A stretch of DNA of 23,039 bases, taken from positions 1 to 23,039 of IMG/VR virus record IMGVR_UViG_3300008262_000319; one strand, written 5' to 3'. Position 1 is the stretch's first letter, and every line of letters begins with the position of its first letter. Position numbers and translations under genes: made by a program. A model generated the notes under the pieces. The model saw only the letters and a list, made by a program, of their open reading frames with translations, did not search any database and was not told the DNA's origin. Below, in pieces: positions 4,707 to 6,118 of this stretch. The DNA is from a virus.

Positions 4707-4899
4707 TGATAGTCGCGTTTGTTAATACTAACAAATATCGTGAATATCTAGCGGGAATGCGTTTGATTGCACGCGAGTGATGTTGCCATTTATGACTGAC
4801 GCGACCGATGACGCGAATGCAATCATTGTGCAAGTGAAATAATACTCCATTGTCATTGACGACATCAAATGACTGGTCTTTGTTTCGATAGATTTTCAT
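4672..4899 (-). CDS. Hypothetical basic protein, 75 aa
   Basis: The product starts MKIYRNKDQSFDVVNDNGVL and is basic, with a His-rich, strand-like middle (LFHLHNDCIRVIGRVSHKWQ) and an Arg-rich tail (RIPARYSRYLL). It starts inside the last 35 bases of the methyltransferase gene and ends inside the NinG-like gene, so all three are coupled. I recognise no family. The fold looks like a small beta barrel or a nucleic-acid-binding protein, but this is only an impression from composition. The start at ATG 4899 is the only one that gives a full-length product. Confidence 0.6.
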   Translation of the reverse strand: MKIYRNKDQSFDVVNDNGVLFHLHNDCIRVIGRVSHKWQHHSRAIKRIPARYSRYLLVLTNATINEKMQDMSRIL

Positions 4900-6118
4900 A
4901 TTCTTGAATTGATTTAAAGATTTGATACACTACTTGTGGCACAATTGCGTTGCCATATGCCTTTATGCTTTCGGTTCGCCATTTAGAAATGGTAATTCCG
5001 TCCAATTCGGCGGGAATCCCATCATTTCGGCCACAAATCGGGGATTGAGTTGGGAAATCTTGCCAGTTTGTTCGTGCGAAATATCGGCTGCAATTTGCTT
5101 CAGGGCGTATTGAAGATTGACCCCCTTTTCTTGGTGTCTCTTTTTTCTCGCTAGATACGTTTGCGGTTTCATTCCATTCTTGCAATCGAATGCGCTCGGT
5201 GTCGGCAACATTCCTTGCCATTCGATTGATTCTTGGTGTGTCATTTTCGTGTCTAATTCCAACGGCACAGGATAGTGAGTCTTGATTGCTTCCCAATCCT
5301 GTATAGATGGGTGACTGAATCCTACCTTGTCCGTTCGATACCAGTGCTCCACTGTTGTCAATTTGAGGTTCAATGTCGTCGCTAATTCCTTTTTTGTTCC
5401 CAATGTTTTTATCCATTCGACAAATTCCTCTTGAGTCGGTAGTTTTGTCCTTTTCACAAATTGTTTTGACGCCAATTCTAGCGCAAGAGCAGGGTTCGTC
5501 TTGAGCACCTCCATTTGTACCGCATCCGATAGCGTCCTTTGTATTTGTTGCCCCGAACTCCTCATTGTTGCACCCATTAACATTTTTGCCGAACCTGTCA
5601 TGTCGCCTGTCTTGACACCATCTATCACGGTCGGAGTAGGCAATAAACCAAACTCGCTCTCGTTGGTGCACGGCATTGACCGAGCACGCAGGAATAATAA
5701 AGGGCGCGACTTGATACCCAAGATTTTCCAAGTCAGCACACACCTCGTCGAATACCATTCCCCCGTTCCAATTAGTAATCCCGCGAACATTTTCGCCCAC
5801 GACGTAACGCGGGGCAATCTCTCGTATTGCTCTAAGCATTTCAGGCCATAGATGGCGTTCGTCTTCTTTGCCGAGTCGCTTTCCACTTGCTGAATAGGGT
5901 TGACAAGGGAATCCACCTGAAATAAGGTCAATTGTTCCATAGTATTTTGTAAAATTTGTTTTTGTTATATCGTCGAATAATTCGGCATTAGGCCAGTAGT
6001 GTTGAAGCACTCGTTGTCCGAAGGGATTCCATTCGCAATGAAATACATTTTCCCACCCCATCCATTCGGATGCGAGGTCAAAACCTCCAATTCCTGAAAA
6101 TAGTGAACCGTGTCTCAT
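4865..6118 (-). CDS. dcm: DNA (cytosine-5) methyltransferase
   Basis: The 417-residue enzyme transfers a methyl group from S-adenosylmethionine to C5 of cytosine in double-stranded DNA, probably protecting phage DNA from host restriction. Motifs in order: I SLFSGIGGF (5-13), IV GGFPCQPYSASGK (68-80, catalytic Cys72), VI ENVRG (109-113), VIII QRERVW (152-157) and X GNAIVPQVVYQIF (389-401). Residues about 160-370 form a long, polar, Asn/Asp/Gly-rich low-complexity target-recognition region. That region is unusual because a second open frame runs across residues about 60-386 (4963-5940). There is no cognate restriction endonuclease beside it, so it is an orphan. The ATG follows the DnaB stop directly (TAA then ATG). 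Confidence 0.93.
   Translation of the reverse strand: MRHGSLFSGIGGFDLASEWMGWENVFHCEWNPFGQRVLQHYWPNAELFDDITKTNFTKYYGTIDLISGGFPCQPYSASGKRLGKEDERHLWPEMLRAIREIAPRYVVGENVRGITNWNGGMVFDEVCADLENLGYQVAPFIIPACSVNAVHQRERVWFIAYSDRDRWCQDRRHDRFGKNVNGCNNEEFGATNTKDAIGCGTNGGAQDEPCSCARIGVKTICEKDKTTDSRGICRMDKNIGNKKGISDDIEPQIDNSGALVSNGQGRIQSPIYTGLGSNQDSLSCAVGIRHENDTPRINRMARNVADTERIRLQEWNETANVSSEKKETPRKGGQSSIRPEANCSRYFARTNWQDFPTQSPICGRNDGIPAELDGITISKWRTESIKAYGNAIVPQVVYQIFKSIQEYENLSKQRPVI
4963..5940 (-). CDS. Nested overlapping gene inside dcm: methyltransferase-associated protein with HTH-like segment
   Basis: A 325-codon frame with ATG 5940, shifted by one base from the methyltransferase frame and lying wholly within it. 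Its product is not like random shadow sequence. It has two LPTP boxes (GLLPTPTVIDGVKTG at about 98-112 and GMLPTPSAFDCKNG at 243-256) and an HTH-like segment at about 165-220 (TKKELATTLNLKLTTVEHWY, then FSHPSIQDWEAIK). Its end is KISQLNPRFVAEMMGFPPNW (294-313) followed by TELPF. From memory, LPTPxAxD and LNPxFVexxMGFPxxWT are conserved features of the C-terminal parts of phage-encoded cytosine methyltransferases and companion proteins. It could help target recognition. No ribosome-binding site is obvious, so expression might depend on coupling or frameshifting. The protein's function is inferred. Confidence 0.6.
   Translation of the reverse strand: MEQLTLFQVDSLVNPIQQVESDSAKKTNAIYGLKCLEQYERLPRVTSWAKMFAGLLIGTGEWYSTRCVLTWKILGIKSRPLLFLRARSMPCTNESEFGLLPTPTVIDGVKTGDMTGSAKMLMGATMRSSGQQIQRTLSDAVQMEVLKTNPALALELASKQFVKRTKLPTQEEFVEWIKTLGTKKELATTLNLKLTTVEHWYRTDKVGFSHPSIQDWEAIKTHYPVPLELDTKMTHQESIEWQGMLPTPSAFDCKNGMKPQTYLARKKRHQEKGVNLQYALKQIAADISHEQTGKISQLNPRFVAEMMGFPPNWTELPFLNGEPKA

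Follow-up and report, generated by a model that had tools for sequence, protein, structure and literature searches.

A nested +1-frame gene within a viral C5-cytosine DNA methyltransferase gene: probable two-subunit enzyme of the M.EcoHK31I kind

The locus and its two reading frames

The window, i.e. the whole stretch of DNA analyzed here, is a virus record of 23,039 bases. ORF listing and translation gave two overlapping genes on its minus strand: ORF A (4865..6118, 417 aa), coding for a C5-cytosine DNA methyltransferase chain, and ORF B (4963..5940, 325 aa), which begins with an ATG at 5940, lies entirely within ORF A and is read +1 relative to it. Products of the neighbouring genes are a NinG-like protein, DnaB helicase, a YqaJ-like recombinase and terminase. 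The initial annotation had pointed to a 325-codon ORF nested in the methyltransferase gene; exactly this ORF was recovered, and the features quoted for its product, LPTPTVID, LPTPSAFD, TTVEHWY...FSHPSIQDW and the LNPRFVAEMMGFPPNWTELP block, were all found in B.

ORF A matched the Pfam family DNA_methylase (PF00145) with E 3e-42 and 145.6 bits (cut-off 22), over a catalytic domain with the PCQ motif; it also matched PHROG 363 (E 5e-73), and in structure comparison its fold matched M.HhaI and M.HaeIII. The protein-family search with the 325-residue translation, proposed along with the initial annotation, led to the phrog_1008 profile (E 6e-23), labelled DNA methyltransferase; this profile was matched by 57 of the 57 aligned relatives of B. 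Searches of Pfam and NCBIfam with B gave no family above cut-off; a weak YdaS_toxin match covered the helix-turn-helix (HTH) segment only. Features of both chains are listed in Table 1.

Table 1. Coordinates (in the window) of features of chains A and B
Feature	Position	Strand	Basis
A motif I, SLFSGIGG (A 5-12)	6083..6106	-	sequence; (nearly) invariant in 42 relatives
B start codon ATG, formed with the tyrosine codon TAT of A	5938..5940	-	TAT in 49/49 relatives
A motif IV, GGFPCQPYS with catalytic Cys (A 68-76)	5891..5917	-	sequence and alignment of relatives
A motif VI, ENVRG (A 109-113)	5780..5794	-	sequence and alignment of relatives
B Trp62, invariant	5755..5757	-	alignment of relatives and A codon test
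A motif VIII, QRERVWFIA (A 152-160)	5639..5665	-	sequence and alignment of relatives
B first LPTP box, LLPTPTVID (B 99-107)	5620..5646	-	sequence and alignment of relatives
Predicted disordered linker of A, between motifs VIII and X	5057..5635	-	pLDDT <50 along most of its length; substitution phases those of the B frame
B HTH module (about B 165-222)	5275..5448	-	pLDDT about 90-98; shared with ten other B loci among those listed
B second LPTP box, MLPTPSAFD (B 244-252)	5185..5211	-	sequence and alignment of relatives
B motif IX-like block, LNPRFVAEMMGFP (B 298-310)	5011..5049	-	profile match to M.HhaI; conservation
A motif X, KAYGNAIVPQV (A 386-396), just past B	4931..4963	-	sequence and alignment of relatives

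Division of motifs between the two chains

The sequence of A and the alignment of 42 relatives showed motifs I, IV, VI, VIII and X, and no motif IX. In the AlphaFold2 model residues 1-170 of A fold, as does, at lower confidence, the C-terminal helix; residues 178-349 have pLDDT <50 almost throughout, thus the model of A shows no target-recognition domain, and the stretch where this domain would be expected is predicted to be a disordered linker. Upstream of the motif IX block this linker carries no A-frame constraint, as judged from substitution phases.

The C-terminus of B is LNPRFVAEMMGFPPNW, followed by a short tail. Conservation in B is highest in the motif IX-like block, where almost all columns are invariant across 57 relatives. 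When a profile of the B C-terminus was compared with PDB sequences, the top 11 places were all taken by M.HhaI 267-293 (motif IX), at a weak E of 0.35; this C-terminal profile was the informative one, as the whole-B profile gave one meaningless hit against PDB and Foldseek with the B model returned nothing significant (best E 0.38). Thus, the C-terminal block of B resembles the C5-methyltransferase motif IX that is absent from A. Of 130 matches, 114 had IX (in B) and X (in A) 95 nt apart, equal to 31.7 codons; in two single-chain phage enzymes taken as controls the distance was 33 codons. In both of these controls IX was in frame, and no long +1 frame ran across it.

Modelled alone, most of the B chain was poorly predicted; the HTH stretch reached pLDDT about 90-98. 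The HTH module lies between the two LPTP boxes; it was also seen in ten other B loci among those listed, and the majority of B relatives do not have it. Some B relatives weakly matched HTH and repressor families. The HTH stretch of B has 44% identity (E 6e-12) to a DNA methyltransferase of Staphylococcus phage Alsa_4 that is encoded with no overlapping gene; there the module sits between the SPPY and DPF motifs, a location suggesting that the HTH may have a role in recognition. In the Alsa_4 locus (L156, 913-2055) the gene for this HTH-bearing SPPY/DPF methyltransferase adjoins a Mom-like DNA modification gene.

Relatives and their distribution

Viral contigs were scanned for relatives of B; of the 482 stretches found to encode them, the best 80 were taken as loci. 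Both frames were open in nearly all of the 80, and wherever the two were identified B was read +1 relative to A. A scan of genomes gave 67 loci, mostly from Bacteroidota, with both frames open in most of them. All in all, both frames were open in nearly all of about 150 related loci, from Bacteroidota, Firmicutes and Enterobacteriaceae. The nested arrangement was also seen in phages of Paenibacillus, Lactobacillus, Bacteroides, Erwinia and E. coli, as well as in enterobacterial chromosomes and plasmids.

In some phage records the nested gene is annotated: gp35 of K1G and gp63 of Lily (‘g62 internal gene’), whose products matched phrog_1008 with E-values of 1e-55 and 6e-44, respectively. Among the records examined, those of E. 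coli RefSeq and of PLSDB plasmids list only A; the gene table of PLSDB is known to be incomplete. None of the papers searched was devoted to nested phage methyltransferases or to the annotated K1G (gp34/gp35) and Lily (gp62/gp63) pairs.

Stops within the N-terminal part of the B frame occurred in L008 and in L069 and L070. The latter two, contigs from different metagenomes, have an identical stop just before the LLPT box, with B intact on either side. Four loci from Bacteroides genomes (L145, L146, L148 and L149) have an in-frame stop in A and no motif X, with B open at full length; these are probably decaying prophage copies. In a human faecal phage (L085, 1501-3735; MT835926.1) an intein-like insert apparently splits A at the catalytic PC|Q; the nested B frame begins after this insert, and A there has no motif X.

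Selection in both frames

As B is read +1 relative to A, third positions of A codons are second positions of B codons, and first positions of A codons are third positions of B codons (A1–A3 and B1–B3 below). Substitution phases were counted in 29 disjoint pairs of relatives. In the N-terminal part coding for A only, the rates at A1/A2/A3 were 0.126/0.059/0.375, the usual pattern of coding in frame A. Where B overlaps A ahead of the LPTP box, the A3 rate dropped from 0.375 to 0.183 (p 5e-37), indicating that in the N-terminal overlap B is constrained too. Between the LPTP box and motif IX the pattern was reversed, B3 0.206 vs B2 0.041 (p 5e-30), this mid-part count being limited to windows of at least 60% nucleotide identity; beyond the end of B, A3 was again the fastest position (0.423). 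An enterobacterial set, analyzed separately with pairs that were not disjoint and mid-part windows of at least 55% identity, showed the same phase inversion. The identity filter lowers the rate and should favour no phase; the unfiltered count gave the same order of positions with a smaller gap.

The resulting map of constraint is as follows: selection acts on A over motifs I–VIII and X, on B between the LPTP box and motif IX, and on both frames over the N-terminal part of B.

Two codons in the overlap are kept beyond the requirements of A. The tyrosine codon of A that makes the ATG of B is TAT in 49 of 49 relatives, vs 65 TAT to 43 TAC (60% TAT) in the A-only part; the A codon under Trp62 of B ends with G in 50 of 50 matched relatives, though the A residue may be Met, Leu or Val (relatives in both counts are not independent, and the counts should not be read as probabilities). 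With the A protein fixed and synonymous codons resampled from A-only usage, B remained open in either half in 0 of 400 runs; with the B protein fixed, the A frame over the 226-residue mid part was open in 0 of 500 runs (0.001, the floor). The phase analysis and resampling rule out an origin of the B frame by chance or composition.

These data bear on what had been proposed from the sequence. An overprinted gene or a two-part enzyme is supported by both frames being open in homologues and by selection on both; the possibilities that no homologue would have both frames open and that selection would act on the methyltransferase frame only both proved false, with nearly all relatives keeping the two frames and the phases showing B selected as well. 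The methyltransferase frame had been described as low-complexity outside its motifs in the overlap, and it is where A is low-complexity, and predicted disordered, that B is selected; the suggestion that the main frame lacks target recognition agrees with the absence of a folded recognition domain from the AlphaFold2 model of A. The C-terminal block of B had been associated, along with other parts of B, with the C-terminal regions of phage cytosine methyltransferases and their companions; it is motif IX-like instead of a generic C-terminal region.

Proposed explanation and its alternatives

We consider it very probable that the locus codes for a C5 methyltransferase of the M.EcoHK31I kind, split between two frames into two subunits, with B supplying recognition and motif IX. 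What we saw fits this explanation: there is selection in both frames, motifs are divided between them with collinear spacing, and the start of B is conserved. One C5-cytosine DNA methyltransferase would thus be delivered as two polypeptides from overlapping frames of one locus. Chain A would provide cofactor binding and catalysis (motifs I–VIII) along with motif X; the part of A that links VIII to X would be a disordered passenger for which the main requirement may be to stay open. Chain B, presumably translated from its own ATG within A, would carry motif IX and a variable region (LPTP boxes and, here, the HTH module) that may recognize the target, and would assemble with A into an active enzyme, by analogy with M.EcoHK31I. 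The collinear order of motifs suggests that the pair descends from a single-chain enzyme, in which the segment with recognition region and motif IX probably shifted to the +1 frame, a step that would leave the A linker and the N-terminal part of B as overprinted sequence.

The same collinear order, I–VIII in A, IX in B and X in A, is what a single chain made by programmed frameshifting would require: ribosomes translating A would change to the B frame past motif VIII and might return ahead of motif X, with no separate B made. The stop just before the LLPT box in L069 and L070, in otherwise intact surroundings, could also be read this way. However, the ATG of B is conserved beyond the needs of A, and the N-terminal part of B is constrained, yet it would be absent from any frameshift product; since the start and the N-terminal part of B are themselves conserved, frameshifting becomes less likely. 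Inclusion of motif X would, moreover, take two slips in opposite directions, and the known enzyme of similar design consists of two polypeptides. We regard frameshifting as improbable.

Slightly less probable still is that B is a genuine protein with a function of its own, e.g. as a DNA-binding regulator, and forms no enzyme with A. The HTH module and the weak matches of some B relatives to HTH or repressor families speak for such a role; nevertheless, the module is missing from most B relatives, in which the IX-like block is the most conserved part, A is left with neither motif IX nor a folded recognition domain, and the HTH occurs within another DNA methyltransferase too. That the second frame is no gene, just a by-product of composition or of conservation of A, can be practically dismissed: two single-chain controls do have the N-terminal +1 frame open for 165–174 codons, so openness there proves little alone, but the substitution phases between the LPTP box and motif IX argue strongly against it, synonymous resampling almost always closes B, and the match of the HTH module is to the product of a non-overlapping gene.

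Within the two-subunit explanation one could speculate further that B is a modular specificity subunit, with LPTP segments and HTH being interchangeable recognition cassettes common to other classes of DNA methyltransferases; we offer this idea tentatively, as it may well be wrong. If it holds, a separate frame lets phages change specificity while A need only stay open.

The layout was already known from one studied enzyme, M.EcoHK31I; it turns out to be widespread and, in the records examined, mostly unannotated. The evidence for its breadth, for dual-frame selection and for a modular B is new here. A curiosity of one enzyme thus becomes a design found across phages and prophages from several phyla, with the two halves of an enzyme very likely encoded by a single stretch of DNA. 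As only the catalytic half is listed in the E. coli RefSeq and PLSDB records examined, ‘DNA cytosine methyltransferases’ of this type that have been cloned or predicted could be inactive or mis-assigned in specificity. Loci of this type also present a clean natural case of dual-frame selection.

Comparison with known systems

The small subunit of M.EcoHK31I is encoded in another frame within the gene of the large subunit. Traits of the M.EcoHK31I type seen in the locus described here are a large chain with motifs I–VIII and X and no IX, an IX-like block on the second chain (E 0.35), and nesting of the second chain in another frame. M.EcoHK31I (alpha/beta, YGGCCR; Lee, Kam and Shaw 1995) is described as having motif IX only on the small subunit and a recognition domain predicted in the large one (PMC3404938). 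The likeness, drawn from the motif layout as described there, is that of a large chain with I–VIII and X and a small second chain with IX; the differences from that description are that recognition is placed in B here, by selection and predicted disorder, and that B has an HTH module in addition.

M.AquI is likewise one C5 methyltransferase made from two polypeptides (PMC3404938); IX and X are both on its small subunit, whereas X stays on A here, so that the split differs from the M.AquI type. The single-chain enzymes M.HhaI, M.HaeIII and that of Streptococcus phage IPP55 share with our pair the catalytic fold, the order of motifs and a similar spacing from IX to X, but have the recognition region and IX in frame with the rest. 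The gp34/gp35 pair of K1G and the gp62/gp63 pair of Lily, though diverged in sequence and with a shorter B that has no HTH, are nested in the same manner and belong to the identical two PHROG families, 363 and 1008.
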